Below the pieces are notes generated by a model. It was not told the origin of the DNA, searched no databases, and saw only the letters and a program-made list of their open reading frames with translations. Positions 1 through 6,052 of a stretch of DNA of 64,000 nt are shown piece after piece. How positions within the stretch are numbered: position 1 is the stretch's first letter; the number at the start of each line of letters is the position of its first letter. Origin of the DNA: Chroogloeocystis siderophila 5.2 s.c.1 (lineage in GTDB: Bacteria > Cyanobacteriota > Cyanobacteriia > Cyanobacteriales > Chroococcidiopsidaceae); contig NZ_MRCC01000003.1 in assembly GCF_001904655.1 (NCBI RefSeq), forward strand, positions 124,001 through 188,000, written 5' to 3'. The position numbers and the translations under genes were made by a program.

Positions 1-441
1 ACGATCGCTGACTTGTCCGCGCTCATCGATACAACGATGAATTTCCTGCTCGATTTCGGGATAAGTGCGAATGTCTTCTACTAAAGCGCTGAGGACGGGT
101 ACATCAGGATGGTTGTCAATTGCGCGACGTAGCTGGCGAGTTCCTGCAAGCGTCGTTGCGATCGCTAAAAGTTCTTCCCCAGCTAAAACGCCTTGGTGTT
201 GTACGCGCGCTAACGCATCGCCAATATCTTGAATACCTTCAAACGACAAACCTCCCGTGAGGCTGTTTTCTAGCTGGTATGCTTCCTGCGTTTGGGCAAG
301 AAGTTCTTCACTGTGTTTTTGGGATTGCGGGATTTGCAAATTACGCGCTGCTGTTGCCCCTAATTTCGTTGCCGCAAAAGTGGACAAGTGTTGACACAGG
401 CGCGACCATTCGAGTAATTCTAGCGTCTCTGATTGAATCAA
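1..441 (-). CDS. mutS2: Endonuclease MutS2, N-terminal part (runs off the left edge)
   Basis: This is the first 147 codons of a MutS2-type ATPase; the rest lies beyond the left edge. MutS2 proteins (about 800 aa) combine a MutS-like core and ATPase with a C-terminal Smr nuclease domain. They act on branched DNA or collided ribosomes rather than in classical mismatch repair. The visible part reads SETLELLEWSRLCQHL, then an AATKLGA stretch, which is the typical start of cyanobacterial MutS2. The start must be TTG at 441, because an in-frame TAA lies only two codons upstream (445-447) and no ATG or GTG lies between. The gene is divergent from the guaB3 locus. The family call is firm from the N-terminus; ATPase and Smr motifs cannot be checked here. 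Confidence 0.85.
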   Translation of the reverse strand, partial: MIQSETLELLEWSRLCQHLSTFAATKLGATAARNLQIPQSQKHSEELLAQTQEAYQLENSLTGGLSFEGIQDIGDALARVQHQGVLAGEELLAIATTLAGTRQLRRAIDNHPDVPVLSALVEDIRTYPEIEQEIHRCIDERGQVSDR

Positions 442-583
442 AGCTTAACCGTTATGCAGGTGCGATAAGTGGGTGAATAGCTTGTTATGATTAAGCAAAC
501 TGCTATTTCTATTGTAGCGAATTCGCAACAATTCTTTTGCAGCAATGAGTACTTGGATATCTAGAAGTAAAATAAATTTCCCT

Positions 584-718
584 GCAATTTGGTACGCTAG
601 CAAAAACAGTATTGGAACTTAAGAAGTAAACAGGCGTGGATATTCAGATTGGGCCTGGGAAAATGGCTCGCCGAGCCTACGGAATTGATGAGATTGCGCT
701 CGTTCCTGGACAGCGCAC
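584..718 (+). repeat. 135 bp direct repeat, left copy
   Basis: Positions 584-718 match 2845-2979 at 133 of 135 bases; the differences are at 600/2861 and 655/2916. The repeat covers about 52 bases of guaB3 leader and the first 27 codons of guaB3. The two copies flank a 2.1 kb island. Identity ends abruptly on both sides. This is expected after recombinational integration or segmental duplication, and is far longer than a transposon target-site duplication. Confidence 0.95.
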
Positions 719-773
719 AATAGTGTTGCCTCAGTATTGTTACCTTCAGCTAGTTTTACAACTAGTAATGTAG
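636..773 (+). pseudogene. Truncated copy of guaB3 (5' fragment only)
   Basis: A GTG start at 636 opens the same reading as the intact guaB3 at 2897 for 27 codons (MDIQIG, then MARRAYGIDEIALVPGQR). It then leaves homology at about 719, continues for 18 unrelated codons and stops at TAG 771-773. One substitution (G to C at 655) changes Arg7 to Pro. It keeps the native left flank next to mutS2, so this end is probably the original guaB3 position that was disrupted. It has no catalytic loop and cannot be functional. A CTAGTT/AACTAG inverted repeat (750-765) lies just before the stop. Confidence 0.85.
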
Positions 774-930
774 CGAGGGAAGATTCAGATTCCAGCGTTG
801 CTCAGTAGAGATAAAGCTTAAGTTTGATTATTCTGATAAGCTACCTGCGTAAATCTTGCTTTTTATTACGAATTATTTTAGATAATTTCTGTAGTTTCTA
901 TAAATTGCCTGTACTCTCTTACCAAATTTC

Positions 931-1587
931 ATGTGTAGGTCTGAAGCTAAGTTAACTAGTTCACTGTTGTTTTTGATACTTCTTACTGGATTACCTGTAA
1001 CTGCACAAACAACCAATTTTAGTGGTAAAAAATTGCCGAGTCGAGCCAATGTGGAGTTCAATCAGCATTGGTCAGTTAAAGACGTAGTGGCTCTTGCCAA
1101 CAAACATAAAGTCAAAATTTCGCAGCTTGAGAGTAGCTATGTTATTGGCTCTACAGAAATTTACGATGGTTATGTCAATCCTGAAACTGGAACCACAGCA
1201 GATCTTGAGGCAAATTATGCAAAAAAACGCTTGGATTATTTCGCTGACATAGTAGCCTTAGAATCTAATATGGCTAACTATGAACGTATTGAACTCCAGC
1301 CAAGGCTCAATGCAATGAAAGCAATTCTCAACAAGCGACAAAATATTGCACCAGTACGTGTAGCTAAGGCATCTTTTTACGGAGAAACATCAAATCTTAT
1401 AGGAATTGCTCAATCTAATATATCGGCTAAAGTTAGCGTTATCGACCAACAGACCATACAAAAGCTAATACAAGAAAGGATTCAACGTGAAAGTCTTCCC
1501 AGGAGGTTCGGTCCAGAGTATGTTCCTAACCAAGTAAATGAACATTTGAATTTCCAACATCTATTTGCAGCATTAAACCCAAGCTGA
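931..1587 (+). CDS. Putative secreted protein, first half of an interrupted gene
   Basis: I do not recognise the family. The 218 aa product has a clear Sec signal peptide: basic start, hydrophobic core SSLLFLILLTG, then a likely signal peptidase I site near VTAQ-TTNF. The rest looks like a soluble, mostly helical exported domain, followed by an Arg- and Gln-rich stretch. The reading frame ends at TGA 1585-1587. The same frame resumes at once with 197 more open codons to 2181, so this is probably the N-terminal half of one 415-residue protein split by a nonsense codon. It lies in the island between the guaB3 repeats, which lacks HIP1 sites. Separate genes or stop-codon readthrough cannot be excluded. 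Confidence 0.6.
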   Translation: MCRSEAKLTSSLLFLILLTGLPVTAQTTNFSGKKLPSRANVEFNQHWSVKDVVALANKHKVKISQLESSYVIGSTEIYDGYVNPETGTTADLEANYAKKRLDYFADIVALESNMANYERIELQPRLNAMKAILNKRQNIAPVRVAKASFYGETSNLIGIAQSNISAKVSVIDQQTIQKLIQERIQRESLPRRFGPEYVPNQVNEHLNFQHLFAALNPS

Positions 1588-1590
1588 CTT

Positions 1591-2181
1591 TTGCCTGCAG
1601 CATTCAAAAACAACAAACTCATAGCACAAACATCGTCCGGAGGAAGAGCGCCTGATGTTGGGGCATCATATGTTTATCCCAGCGCAAACGGCGGACGCTA
1701 TACACGTCAAACAATGCGGTGGGGAAACTTCCCAGGCTTCCGTTATGAAGAAACTTATGAACATGACTTTTTTCTATACAACTATGACAGGGCAACGTAC
1801 TTAGATCCAAGAAATATAGGGTATCCCAATTGTTTGCCAGCAGCAACTTATTGGTCTACAACGTGGCCTGCGTCATCGCGACCATATTTAGATACAAGGT
1901 TTGGACAAAATAGCAAGTGTGAAGTTGATGAATTAGCGTACACTGTAGGAGCAGCCTTTGCTAATCAACTTTTCAACGGGATAACCTATGAAACATATAT
2001 CCGCACTGCTAATGGTAATGCAAATTCAGACAGGTTTAGACTAAGTGGACAAATTGGCTATCGTTCACCCGTAACTAACTGCCCTCGCGATTGGACATGG
2101 TGTAGTTTTGGAAAATATTCAGTAGTGTTGGTACCAGCGTGGAGCGTTAATGTTCCTAACACTAGATCTTGGGTAAAATAA
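1591..2181 (+). CDS. Continuation of the interrupted secreted protein (C-terminal half)
   Basis: This ORF is in the same frame as the preceding one, separated only by TGA and one codon. The nominal start is TTG 1591, with no convincing ribosome binding site. The 196 aa are rich in Tyr, Asn, Gly and aromatic residues (SYVYPSANGGRY, MRWGNFPGFRYEETYEHDFF). There are four cysteines (NCLPA, SKCEVD, TNCPRDWTWCS), consistent with a disulfide-bonded extracellular beta-rich domain. It has no signal peptide of its own, so it would be exported only as part of a fusion with the upstream half. I do not recognise the fold. The feature is either the distal part of a pseudogene or of a protein made by UGA readthrough. 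Confidence 0.5.
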   Translation: MPAAFKNNKLIAQTSSGGRAPDVGASYVYPSANGGRYTRQTMRWGNFPGFRYEETYEHDFFLYNYDRATYLDPRNIGYPNCLPAATYWSTTWPASSRPYLDTRFGQNSKCEVDELAYTVGAAFANQLFNGITYETYIRTANGNANSDRFRLSGQIGYRSPVTNCPRDWTWCSFGKYSVVLVPAWSVNVPNTRSWVK

Positions 2182-2292
2182 TAACTTAGTTGAAGTGTAA
2201 CTGTTATATATTTAGCTAGGAATAGAACAATTAAAGTAGACAAATAGCAGTAACTTCATAACGATTCATTCTGAGGTTACTGTTAATATTGG

Positions 2293-2312
2293 ATAATTAC
2301 TGGAGTAATTAT
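2293..2312. repeat. Inverted repeat upstream of the small membrane protein gene
   Basis: ATAATTAC (2293-2300) and GTAATTAT (2305-2312) form a perfect 8 bp stem with a TGGA loop, 36 bases before ATG 2348. There is no U-tract. It could be an operator or a hairpin in the leader. No regulator is implied by the sequence. Confidence 0.35.
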
Positions 2313-2347
2313 ATCCGTCAATAATCTAAGATTAAAAATCATTGTTT

Positions 2348-2656
2348 ATGAAGCGCTCTGCTACACTTGCAGTATTACTACTTAGTGTTGTTACTGTTCT
2401 TGCTTCTGCCTACCTTCCTGTGACGGTTTACAGTCAAGCTAATTTATCTGAAGTCAAGCTAGGCTTACCTCTGCCATTTATCATCCAAAATCAAAACTAT
2501 CATCCACAATTTCCTTGGCAAACTGGTCTTCGTTCTGTTTGGGAGAATCCAACGCAGATTCTTTGGCTAGTGTTTTTTCTTGACGTATTTATTGTCTTTG
2601 GAGCTTTCAGTTTGGTTTTAAAGGTTTTTCAAAATTTTTTTTACACAACACCGTAG
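2348..2656 (+). CDS. Small two-segment membrane protein of unknown function
   Basis: This 102 aa product starts at ATG 2348; a TTG two codons upstream is also possible. It has an N-terminal hydrophobic segment (about residues 6-27) that could be a signal anchor or cleaved signal. A polar stretch of about 45 residues with LGLPLPFI and HPQFPWQ follows. A second hydrophobic segment (about residues 72-95, WLVFFLDVFIVFGAFSLVL) ends near the C-terminus. I recognise no family. It is the last gene of the guaB3-flanked island. Its topology suggests a short periplasmic or extracellular loop between two membrane segments. The gene appears intact. Confidence 0.55.
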   Translation: MKRSATLAVLLLSVVTVLASAYLPVTVYSQANLSEVKLGLPLPFIIQNQNYHPQFPWQTGLRSVWENPTQILWLVFFLDVFIVFGAFSLVLKVFQNFFYTTP

Positions 2657-2844
2657 GCAATAGCTGCGATAAATACTTTAAGCTTTTAGCTATCTGACAG
2701 TTTTTTTCATTATAAACTAGCTATTTGCACCAAAATTGATCATAAGTAATCTCATGAACCATAATTTCATCTGACGAATGAGAACTCTTTAGATCATCAA
2801 AATACTAAGCGATGAGAATGCCTGAACTACACCCGATTAGCCTG

Positions 2845-2979
2845 GCAATTTGGTACGCTAACAAAAACAGTATTGGAACTTAAGAAGTAAACAGGCGTGG
2901 ATATTCAGATTGGGCGTGGGAAAATGGCTCGCCGAGCCTACGGAATTGATGAGATTGCGCTCGTTCCTGGACAGCGCAC
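2845..2979 (+). repeat. 135 bp direct repeat, right copy
   Basis: This is the partner of 584-718 (133/135 identical). It carries the short leader and start of the intact guaB3. Upstream of 2845 the sequence is island DNA, so the intact gene keeps only about 52 bases of its original leader. Confidence 0.95.
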
Positions 2980-4060
2980 GCTAGACCCAAGTTTAGCAGA
3001 TACACATTGGCAAATTGGCAGTATCCAGCGGGAAATTCCGATTATTGCCAGTGCTATGGATGGTGTTGTTGATGTCCGCATGGCAGTGCTTTTGTCGCAG
3101 TTGGGTGCGTTGGGTGTTTTGAATTTAGAAGGAATTCAAACGCGTTATGCTGACCCAAATCCTATTTTAGAAAGAATTGCCTCGGTAGGTCCGCAAGAAT
3201 TTGTACCGCTGATGCAAGAACTTTATGCTGAACCTGTCAAGCCCGAACTCATTACACAGCGTATCCAAGAAATCAAACAGCAAGGAGGCATTGCCGCAGT
3301 CAGTGCGACGCCGCTAGGCGCAAGTAAATATGGCTCAATTGTCGCGAGTGCAGGCGCTGATTTATTTTTTGTCCAAGCAACAGTAGTTTCTACAGCGCAT
3401 TTGTCACCTGAATCGATGGCAAACTTGGATTTAGCTGAATTCTGCCGCGAGATGCCCATGCCTGTCGTGTTGGGAAATTGCGTGACGTATGAAGTGACGC
3501 TAAACCTGATGAAGGCTGGTGCAGCGGCTGTGCTTGTGGGAATTGGTCCTGGCGCTGCGTGTACTTCGCGGGGTGTTCTGGGTGTGGGTATACCACAAGC
3601 AACCGCGATCGCTGACTGTGCGGCTGCGCGTGATGATTATCATCGGGAAACGGGTAATTATGTTCCAGTCATCGCTGATGGCGGTTTGATTACTGGTGGT
3701 GACATCTGTAAGTGTATCGCCTGCGGTGCTGATGGCGTGATGATTGGCTCCCCCTTTGCGCGTGCGGCTGAAGCCCCAGGACGCGGTTTTCACTGGGGTA
3801 TGGCAACACCTAGCCCTGTATTACCTCGTGGCACGCGTATTCGAGTTGGTACGACGGGTACGTTAGAACAAATTCTGCGTGGGCCTGCGCAACTTGATGA
3901 CGGAACACATAATTTTTTAGGCGCTTTAAAAACTAGCATGGGTACGTTGGGAGCTAAGGATATTAAAGAAATGCAGCAAGTCGAAGTTGTGATCGCGCCT
4001 TCGTTGCTAACCGAAGGTAAGGTTTATCAAAAAGCACAACAGTTGGGCATGGGCAAGTAA
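2897..4060 (+). CDS. guaB3: GuaB3-type IMP dehydrogenase family protein
   Basis: This 387 aa TIM-barrel enzyme of the IMPDH/GMP reductase family lacks the CBS pair seen in about 490 aa GuaB. Family members of this type in cyanobacteria are labelled GuaB3 and are thought to oxidise IMP to XMP with NAD, the committed step to GMP. Visible motifs are the N-terminal GIDEIALVPG, the ASAMDGVVD segment, and the nucleotide-binding loop GIGPGAACTSRG with catalytic Cys222. A GADGVMIGSPFARA phosphate-binding region follows. The start is GTG 2897, the usual family N-terminus. The gene is intact, but its first 27 codons and leader are duplicated at 584-718, so its promoter may have changed. Yfr1 and trxA follow downstream. 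Confidence 0.9.
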   Translation: MDIQIGRGKMARRAYGIDEIALVPGQRTLDPSLADTHWQIGSIQREIPIIASAMDGVVDVRMAVLLSQLGALGVLNLEGIQTRYADPNPILERIASVGPQEFVPLMQELYAEPVKPELITQRIQEIKQQGGIAAVSATPLGASKYGSIVASAGADLFFVQATVVSTAHLSPESMANLDLAEFCREMPMPVVLGNCVTYEVTLNLMKAGAAAVLVGIGPGAACTSRGVLGVGIPQATAIADCAAARDDYHRETGNYVPVIADGGLITGGDICKCIACGADGVMIGSPFARAAEAPGRGFHWGMATPSPVLPRGTRIRVGTTGTLEQILRGPAQLDDGTHNFLGALKTSMGTLGAKDIKEMQQVEVVIAPSLLTEGKVYQKAQQLGMGK

Positions 4061-4135
4061 ATCTACTTGGGTAAAACTCCCAATGAAGTTTGCAGGAATT
4101 GTTCAGTAAATTCTGAAAAAAGCTAACCTGTCGCC

Positions 4136-4141
4136 TACAAT
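4136..4141 (+). promoter_or_regulatory. Candidate -10 element of Yfr1
   Basis: TACAAT lies seven bases before the expected 5' end of Yfr1 (about 4148-4150), matching the bacterial -10 consensus TATAAT at five of six positions. No good -35 hexamer is visible at 17 bp spacing. Confidence 0.5.
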
Positions 4142-4148
4142 AGAAAAA

Positions 4149-4220
4149 GCGGAGACGCATGTTTCCGTTCACTCCTCACACCACACTCCGCTCGGACTTC
4201 TGTTCGAGCGGTTCCTTATT
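4149..4220 (+). ncRNA. yfr1: Yfr1 small regulatory RNA
   Basis: Two hairpins flank the conserved unpaired core ACTCCTCACACCAC (4171-4184), the hallmark of cyanobacterial Yfr1. The 5' hairpin is GGAGAC/GTTTCC (4151-4156 with 4161-4166, loop GCAT). The 3' hairpin is CCGCTCGGA/TTCGAGCGG (4188-4196 with 4203-4211, loop CTTCTG), followed by the U-rich TTCCTTATT that completes a Rho-independent terminator. The position between guaB-type and trxA genes is the known location in many cyanobacteria. Yfr1 is an abundant riboregulator that pairs through the CU-rich core with mRNAs, including outer-membrane protein mRNAs. The ends are inferred from structure and may be off by a few bases. Confidence 0.9.
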
Positions 4221-4345
4221 ATTAGGGGTGAGAGACCTTTATAGGTATTATCTCCTCTGCTCTAAAGTCTACTTCTGGGTATAAGAACCTAAGATCTATC
4301 TAAATATAGACAGTTGAGAAAGCAGAACGCGGCACGCGGCTATGG

Positions 4346-4351
4346 TAGAAT
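4346..4351 (+). promoter_or_regulatory. Candidate -10 element of trxA
   Basis: TAGAAT lies 39 bases before the trxA ATG in the spacer after Yfr1, matching the -10 consensus at five of six positions. It suggests trxA has its own promoter separate from guaB3 and Yfr1. Confidence 0.4.
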
Positions 4352-4390
4352 TTCAGCAAAGTAAGAGATATAGCTTAAGGATTTCTAGGC

Positions 4391-4714
4391 ATGTCAGTAG
4401 CCGCACAAGTTACAGACTCGACGTTTAAACAGGAAGTACTCGAAAGCGAAGTTCCAGTTCTAGTGGACTTTTGGGCACCTTGGTGTGGTCCGTGCCGGAT
4501 GGTAGCTCCTGTTGTGGATGAAATTGCACAGCAATACGACGGTCAGGTGAAAGTTGTAAAACTTAACACAGACGAAAACCCCAACGTTGCTAGTCAATAC
4601 GGTATTCGCAGTATCCCGACATTAATGATTTTTAAGGGTGGGCAACGAGTTGATATGGTCGTAGGTGCAGTTCCTAAGAGTACTTTGTCTAACACGTTAG
4701 AAAAGTATTTGTAA
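4391..4714 (+). CDS. trxA: Thioredoxin (m-type)
   Basis: This is a 107 aa single-domain thioredoxin. It reduces disulfides in target enzymes, in cyanobacteria mostly with electrons from ferredoxin-thioredoxin reductase. The redox motif WCGPC is at residues 31-35 (Cys32, Cys35). The preceding [10 protein letters not shown] and the cis-proline RSIPTLMIF segment are canonical. Length and sequence match the m-type thioredoxin of cyanobacteria. It starts at ATG 4391 and is transcribed in the same direction as guaB3 and Yfr1. A long inverted repeat that may terminate it lies at 4793-4842. Confidence 0.95.
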
Positions 4715-4791
4715 AATTGCTCTTAGGCGAATAACTTTATCGTTTAGCAGTGCGGCATCTTAGTTGGACTGTTAGAGTAAAGTTGATAATA

Positions 4792-4842
4792 TTTCGCTCA
4801 AATACCATGCTTAGAAGTATTATTGAGCTTTATTTGAGCGAA
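4792..4842 (+). terminator. Candidate terminator after trxA
   Basis: TTCGCTCAAAT (4793-4803) pairs perfectly with ATTTGAGCGAA (4832-4842), an 11 bp stem with a 28 base loop. The tail is AT-rich (TAAAATAATATG), not a clean U-run, so termination is likely but not certain. The rest of the 4715-4984 spacer shows one HIP1-like core and the LOG gene leader. Confidence 0.5.
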
Positions 4843-4984
4843 TAAAATAATATGAGTTTGTAGTTTAAGTTGGGCGATCGCAAAAAAGTACTAAAAAGCA
4901 ATATTAAAAAATTATTAATCTACGACTTGACAAATAACCCCCAAAATATCGATAAAATAGAGTGCCACTTGTGCGGAAGCACTC

Positions 4985-6052
4985 ATGACCTCATCTTCCC
5001 ATTTTCCATCATTAGAGTCTCTTGAATTAGACCTGACTGACTTAATCGAGAAGCTGCCGCATCACAAACACCGGCAACTGATTCAGTACGCGCTTGCCAC
5101 GATTGTCAAGTTAGCCAATAGCGATATCGAACGCCTTGACTGGAAAATATTGTCAGCGTCATTAGCTGATATGGAGCAAGGCTTTAACATTTTTTACCCG
5201 TATCGACACGTACGCAAGGTAACAATTTTTGGCTCAGCGCGGACATCACCAGAAGCACCAGAATATCGTATGGCGTTTGATTTTGCGCGATGTGTGACGC
5301 AGTTAGGCTTCATGGTGATGACGGGGGGTGGCGGTGGAATTATGCAAGCAGGAAATGAAGGCGCTGGGCGAGAAAACTCGTTTGGGTTAAACATTCAACT
5401 ACCGTTTGAACAAGAAGCAAACCCTGTTGTTGAAGGCGATGCTAAACTGATTCACTTTAAGTACTTTTTCACTCGCAAACTATTTCTACTGCGTGAAAGT
5501 GATGCGATCGCGCTATTCCCTGGCGGATTTGGCACGCAAGACGAAGCTTTTGAGTGCATGACGCTCAGTCAAACAGGTAAATTTGGTCCTGTACCTGTCG
5601 TTTTAATTGATCGCCCAGGAGGGGACTATTGGCGGGCTTGGAGTGAGTATATCGATAAGCACCTCCGCCAACAAGGATTAATTAGTCCTGAAGACGATAG
5701 CCTTTACACAATTACAGATAATCTGGAAGTGGCTTGCAATGCGATCACGCGGTTTTACCAGGTTTATCACTCTAGCCGCTACGTAGGTGACAAACTCGTC
5801 ATTCGGATGAAAACAGATATCTCGGATGCAGATGTCGAGACGTTAAATACTAACTTTAACGATATTCTCGTTAAGGGACGCATCGAAAAAAGCCAAGCTT
5901 TACCACAAGAAGCGCAAGACGAAACCTCTGAACTACCCCGTCTCGTGTTGTATTTTAATCAGCGCGATTTAGGGCGTCTCTATCAAATGATCGCCACTAT
6001 CAATGAAATGGGGACTCCTTCACCTGTAGAAGCGCATCCAGAACGAAAATGA
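4985..6052 (+). CDS. LOG-family (TIGR00730-type) Rossmann-fold protein
   Basis: This 355 aa protein has a LOG/lysine-decarboxylase-like Rossmann domain. Small members are cytokinin-activating phosphoribohydrolases; long cyanobacterial members like this have no assigned substrate. Seen are VTIFGSARTSPEAPEY at the domain start, a glycine-rich MTGGGGGIMQAGNEGA nucleotide-binding loop, and the signature PGGFGTQDE at about residues 178-186. Its Arg/Glu pattern typifies nucleotide 5'-monophosphate nucleosidases. Extensions of about 70 residues at the N-terminus and about 110 at the C-terminus go beyond the minimal family. The C-terminus contains LVLYFNQRDLGRLY. It starts at ATG 4985. Function beyond nucleotide hydrolysis is inference. 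Confidence 0.8.
   Translation: MTSSSHFPSLESLELDLTDLIEKLPHHKHRQLIQYALATIVKLANSDIERLDWKILSASLADMEQGFNIFYPYRHVRKVTIFGSARTSPEAPEYRMAFDFARCVTQLGFMVMTGGGGGIMQAGNEGAGRENSFGLNIQLPFEQEANPVVEGDAKLIHFKYFFTRKLFLLRESDAIALFPGGFGTQDEAFECMTLSQTGKFGPVPVVLIDRPGGDYWRAWSEYIDKHLRQQGLISPEDDSLYTITDNLEVACNAITRFYQVYHSSRYVGDKLVIRMKTDISDADVETLNTNFNDILVKGRIEKSQALPQEAQDETSELPRLVLYFNQRDLGRLYQMIATINEMGTPSPVEAHPERK

Follow-up and report, generated by a model that had tools for sequence, protein, structure and literature searches.

A genomic islet between two copies of the guaB3 start in Chroogloeocystis siderophila 5.2 s.c.1, apparently exchanged in part between cyanobacterial genera

Small segments that vary between bacterial genomes are flanked by repeats in 10-18% of cases according to the available excerpt of PMC2884548, where homology-assisted illegitimate recombination is discussed. 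A second relevant system is provided by merodiploids produced by transformation in Streptococcus pneumoniae, in which donor DNA bridging two chromatids leaves a tandem duplication; the available excerpt of that report also describes one pneumococcal duplication, 3,276 bp long, that lacks flanking repeats and whose mechanism is given as unclear (PMC3784515). The islet described here, located between mutS2 and guaB3 of a cyanobacterium, resembles the small variable segments of the excerpted survey in being present or absent between conserved sequence of related genomes (PMC2884548).

The window analyzed was the whole stretch of 64,000 nucleotides from Chroogloeocystis siderophila 5.2 s.c.1 (G000 in the comparisons below), and all coordinates refer to it. 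The features of the locus are as follows:

1-441, minus strand: start of mutS2, the left neighbor (NCBIfam TIGR01069, matching residues 4-147 of the protein piece that the window contains).
584-718, plus strand: left repeat copy, the truncated one, consisting of the guaB3 leader and codons 1-27, in its native position adjoining mutS2.
719-2844, no strand: the islet, 2,126 bp, GC 37.8%, no HIP1 octamer, absent from the congeneric genomes G001 and G002.
931-2181, plus strand: probable split gene of 416 codons with an in-frame TGA at 1585-1587, in two parts, i1 (931-1587) and i2 (1591-2181).
2348-2656, plus strand: i3, a 102-residue protein of a rare family, with 91% amino acid identity to the copy in G004 and 60% to that in G005.
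2657-2844, no strand: spacer from i3 to the guaB3 leader, common to G004 (aligned together with the leader as 2657-2896).
2845-2979, plus strand: right repeat copy, in which the guaB3 leader and codons 1-27 are retained (compared in a table of seven leaders).
2897-4060, plus strand: intact guaB3, 387 codons with a GTG start (NCBIfam TIGR01304, 561 bits).

The presence of the guaB3 start in two copies, as proposed in an earlier sequence-only reading of the same DNA, was borne out by direct alignment. Positions 584-718 and 2845-2979 form a direct repeat with 133 of 135 bases identical that encloses 2,126 bp, and the two mismatches (left/right) are located at 600/2861 (G/A) and 655/2916 (C/G). 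The repeat search returned this pair as family D1 (584-723 and 2845-2984, 97%) and, with an exact seed of 16 bases and repeats of 45 bp or longer considered, found no other direct repeat in the window. The left copy continues into an ORF of 45 amino acids (636-773). That this copy is the truncated one, beside mutS2, and that the right copy opens the intact gene also held, as indicated by the 387-codon ORF and its TIGR01304 match. The mutS2 piece scored 113.8 bits with TIGR01069; being partial, it does not reach the cut-off of 400 that applies to the whole protein. The mutS2-side spacer of C. siderophila is identical to that of G002 at 132 of 144 positions and to that of G001 at 134 of 145.

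The surroundings of guaB3 were compared at 30 loci, one from C. siderophila and 29 from relatives, each with 1.5 kb flanks. The interval is 2,455 bp long in C. siderophila and 197 and 194 bp, between the same neighbors, in G001 and G002, the two other genomes of the genus examined. The insertion is absent from both, and the duplication was not shared throughout the clade among the genomes compared. In a second genus (g3) the interval is 196 bp (G010), 199 bp (G014), or 713 bp (G004), and in a third (g4) it is 997 bp (G005). A mutS2 match within the flank was present in 17 relatives, with intervals of 139-1,396 bp, longer ones escaping this range. The longest, in G007 (L026) of the same family, has a GC content of 34%, and tblastn with i1, i2, and i3 gave no match there. 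The mutS2 ORF of G010 (L142) stops after 335 codons, compared to approximately 790-825 in relatives, which could reflect a broken gene or a sequencing error. A guaB3 scan of named genomes returned 80 loci with a best identity of 91%, whereas members of the genus reach 98-99%; these 80 loci were left out of the comparisons. Judged from these genomes, the mutS2-guaB3 interval is a variable place, and i3 lies beside guaB3 at three of the 30 loci (G000, G004, and G005), one in each of the three genera.

The low GC content of the islet and its lack of HIP1 octamers, both pointed out in the sequence-only reading, were confirmed, but their weight as evidence is weak: among 619 windows of the islet's length drawn from the 64 kb, 5% have an equal or lower GC content, and 5.9% of same-length windows also contain no HIP1 octamer (mean 2.9). 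The two ORFs i1 and i2 most likely constitute one gene broken by a nonsense codon, because they share a frame in which the TGA is the single stop, compared to 19-43 stops in each of the other five frames. The start of this gene resembles a signal peptide when judged by eye. Neither i1 nor i2 matched a Pfam or NCBIfam family at the cut-off (i2 had one sub-threshold Pfam match, E 0.18), and the read-through product matched no Pfam family. No solved structure matched at E values up to 1, a single-sequence fold prediction of the read-through protein was uninformative (mean pLDDT 31), and a PHROG search gave weak matches only (best E 0.052). Relatives of the split gene were found in three of 388 genomes of the order, C. 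siderophila included, and it is whole only in the latter; across the phylum, its own genome was the sole match among 386. The other two genomes contain short relatives of the C-terminal part, frameshifted in G018 (L128:1278-1668) and a fragment in G014 (L129:1501-1629). The G014 fragment adjoins a zinc-ribbon ORF that we take to resemble part of an IS1-type transposase.

The i3 family was found in eight of the 388 genomes of the order, own genome included. The products of i3 and of the split gene appear, by eye, to be membrane or secreted proteins. A promoter scan returned 10 sites, compared to 6.7 (sd 2.4) in shuffled sequence, and the same scan found no terminator. With one gene broken and i3 patchily kept, the islet is probably of little use to the cell.

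The divergence of i3 differs markedly from that of its surroundings. Between G000 and G004, dS is 0.17 for i3, 0.97 for guaB3, and 0.91 for mutS2, and fourfold sites differ at 5 of 47 in i3 (first 95 codons only, the ends differing by a frameshift) compared to 100 of 199 in guaB3 (Fisher p 4e-7). The region 2657-2896 is identical to G004 at 209 of 219 aligned bases with 26 gapped columns (88% in BLAST, where gaps are counted), and G004 alone among the 18 other genomes of the family gave matches extending beyond the leader. G010, a near sister of G004, has no i3. These comparisons mean that i3 and the spacer moved horizontally, because dS is far below that of both neighbors and the G010 interval is empty of i3; the same dS difference led us to reject plain vertical inheritance for the G000 and G004 copies.

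A comparison of G004 with G010 indicates that the interval is exchanged as a block, because the spacer has diverged while the flanking genes are nearly identical. The mutS2-side spacers of the two genomes agree at 117 of 148 positions, compared to 490 of 494 in the nearest parts of both genes (p 3e-17). The latter figure comprises three mutS2 windows (297/300) and two guaB3 windows (193/194) chosen beside the spacer; a fourth mutS2 window agreed at 87 of 100, and identity over the comparable ORFs is 91% for mutS2 (335 codons) and 98% for guaB3. G004 seems to have taken its interval (L138:9957-10670) from an unsampled lineage, because its spacer is unlike that of G010 and reaches at most 123 of 144 identical positions with any other genome (G002). 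To the left of i3, G004 carries a decayed leader with 3 mismatches in 16 positions.

In a tree of the eight i3-family sequences, the guaB3-linked copies of G000 and G004 group together (96/97), three copies from another locus group apart (100/100), and the guaB3-linked copy of G005 was placed without resolution. The second i3-family locus lies between two conserved genes, presumably larB and a thermonuclease gene from their resemblance, in G001, G002, and G014. At this locus, the G001 copy contains a TAG stop and C. siderophila retains a remnant with 48 amino acids matched (L130:5036-5179, contig C15).

The boundaries of the islet were located by following which sequence the right repeat copy resembles. 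To the left of 2845, the sequence is G004-like, except at 2831 and 2842-2844 in the alignment used. At 2861, the right copy has A, as do G004, G001, G010, and G014, and at 2873, 2879, and 2889 it agrees with the left copy of its own genome and not with G004. The right boundary therefore lies within 2845-2873, where G004-like sequence switches to own-like sequence, and the left boundary at 718/719. At 2953, both copies of C. siderophila have G while the five nearest genomes have A; G occurs at this position in 4 of the 30 loci (G000, G005, and two others). Formation or homogenization of the repeat probably took place in the G000 lineage after its split from G001 and G002, because the right copy is own-like from 2873 and both copies carry the G at 2953. 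The segment 719-2347 had no DNA match in the 18 other genomes of the family.

We favor, at slightly better than even chances, an origin of the islet from DNA of a relative that was joined to the chromosome by a crossover in the guaB3 leader on one side and by a presumably non-homologous join at 718/719 on the other. The ancestor, as suggested by G001 and G002, would have had a short interval of mutS2, leader, and guaB3. DNA of a relative bearing i3 and the spacer in front of guaB3 would have been taken into the cell and undergone recombination with the chromosome. The right-hand crossover would have fallen within the first approximately 28 bp of the conserved guaB3 leader, as shown by the point at which G004-like sequence gives way to own-like sequence (between 2845 and 2873). 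At the left end, the incoming DNA would have been attached past codon 27 of guaB3 on another copy of the chromosome, with no homology visible at the join. The outcome would be a leader with 27 codons on both sides, an intact right guaB3 with its conserved leader, and a left copy serving as a second leader that reads into the broken gene. The presence of dprA in C. siderophila gives weak support for the entry of foreign DNA, because dprA was also matched in 10 of 14 control genomes, including E. coli. Several observations count against the favored origin: none of the 18 family genomes offers a donor for 719-2347, so that i3 alone shows a horizontal origin; a single assembly provides the left join; the homology available for the right crossover is approximately 28 bp; and the donor could itself have had G at 2953, since 3 of the 29 other loci do. 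The leader on both sides may also be older than the event in C. siderophila, with gene conversion having equalized the two copies there, because G004 keeps a decayed leader to the left of i3.

The sequence-only reading had proposed Campbell-type integration of a circle or, alternatively, a segmental duplication. A circle carrying the islet and one 135 bp copy, for example one excised elsewhere and taken up again, would produce exactly the observed geometry with its long repeat, and the leader also lies on both sides of i3 in G004. However, the three ORFs contain no replication, integrase, or mobilization family, plasmid and phage collections held no match for the islet DNA, the broken gene, or i3, the broken gene has no relative among IMG/VR contigs, and 584-2979 has one DNA match in the assembly, with no free copy; the source of the guaB3 start on the circle is also left unexplained. 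Such a circle is considered an unlikely but live alternative: the geometry fits, whereas no replication or transfer genes and no plasmid or phage record were found. An origin from a plasmid, phage, or virus was rejected on the same collection searches. Segmental duplication was likewise rejected, since 584-2979 has a single match in its own genome, where only the diverged 48-residue i3 remnant occurs elsewhere, and since 719-2347 is unmatched in the other family genomes. An insertion sequence or transposon was also discarded: no transposase, integrase, or relaxase family was found in the islet ORFs, there are no long end repeats, and the three inverted pairs of at least 20 bp in 1-5000 (the search minimum) lie away from the islet ends.

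Ancestral presence of the islet in this interval, followed by numerous losses as the two repeats recombined with each other, accounts for i3 between mutS2 and guaB3 in three genera and for the decay of its paralogues elsewhere. This reading is given a low probability in view of the i3 dS of 0.17 against approximately 0.9 in both neighbors, and of G005, in which no left leader was found at up to 3 mismatches and the only other match has 5; it may nevertheless apply to the older history of the interval. A very small non-autonomous element that inserts at the guaB3 leader and, by bringing a leader copy of its own, leaves the gene restored would explain the two-sided leader with an intact gene on the right in G000 and G004 and the recurrence of i3 in the same place in three genera, but the ORFs hold no recombinase family, the ends are unlike (the break is in the leader in G004 but follows codon 27 in G000), and G005 has one clear leader only. 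We regard this element as highly improbable. A broader version, in which the leader is a preferred entry site for a small cassette of i3, alone or with additional cargo, that exits precisely by repeat recombination and so flickers on and off across genera, is an equally long shot. Finally, the left join could be a misassembly: the length of the repeat is close to that of a short read, and the left junction is present in one assembly only. Misassembly of short repeats, however, usually merges the copies and does not generate unique sequence; moreover, the two copies differ at two positions, the join lies inside a contig of 359,812 bp, and the right side is independently present in G004, which together make an error very unlikely.

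The sequence-only reading had further suggested that expression of guaB3 might now depend on islet DNA. This was not supported, because the right copy retains the motif ATTTG(A/G)TA, which precedes the start codon of guaB3 by 40-51 bp at 27 of the 30 loci (the exceptions being L022, L024, and L029). The right leader copy holds the block ATTTGGTACGCT. The excerpt available under PMC13273366 cites Rubin and others 2015 for the essentiality of guaB3 in Synechococcus elongatus, which would fit selection for an intact right copy.

Overall, the locus is an ordinary kind of genomic islet that is real, at least partly recent, and horizontally exchanged; it is missing between conserved neighbors in G001 and G002, and neither its ORF families nor the plasmid and phage searches gave a match to a known mobile element. 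Its appearance is that of a scar left when related species exchanged genes, not that of an active mobile element. The islet shows small DNA entering a cyanobacterial chromosome beside a purine-synthesis gene while leaving that gene unbroken, with a conserved leader as the recombination anchor, so that guaB3 survives as the neighboring DNA changes. The apparent replacement of the whole interval in G004 bears on the exchange of regulatory regions between genera.

Compared to the small variable segments, for which the excerpted survey describes repeats mostly shorter than 30 bp and variation within species (PMC2884548), the islet has a repeat of 135 bp and varies between species and genera. The pneumococcal duplications span approximately 100 to 900 kb and, in the excerpted report, have no foreign islet between the copies (PMC3784515), in contrast to the 135 bp repeat found here. 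The favored origin resembles homology-facilitated illegitimate recombination with a short target duplication; in the excerpted accounts, that process has one homologous and one non-homologous end and adds foreign DNA (PMC2884548, PMC3240628). In the islet, the homologous end corresponds to the switch in the guaB3 leader, and the left join would be the non-homologous end. Unlike that process as described in natural transformation, the islet is known from its sequence, and the route from a second chromosome copy to the 135 bp duplication is a proposed one. The locus also resembles horizontal regulatory transfer, in that G004 seems to have replaced its mutS2-guaB3 intergenic region, and differs from it in that the i3 gene came along.
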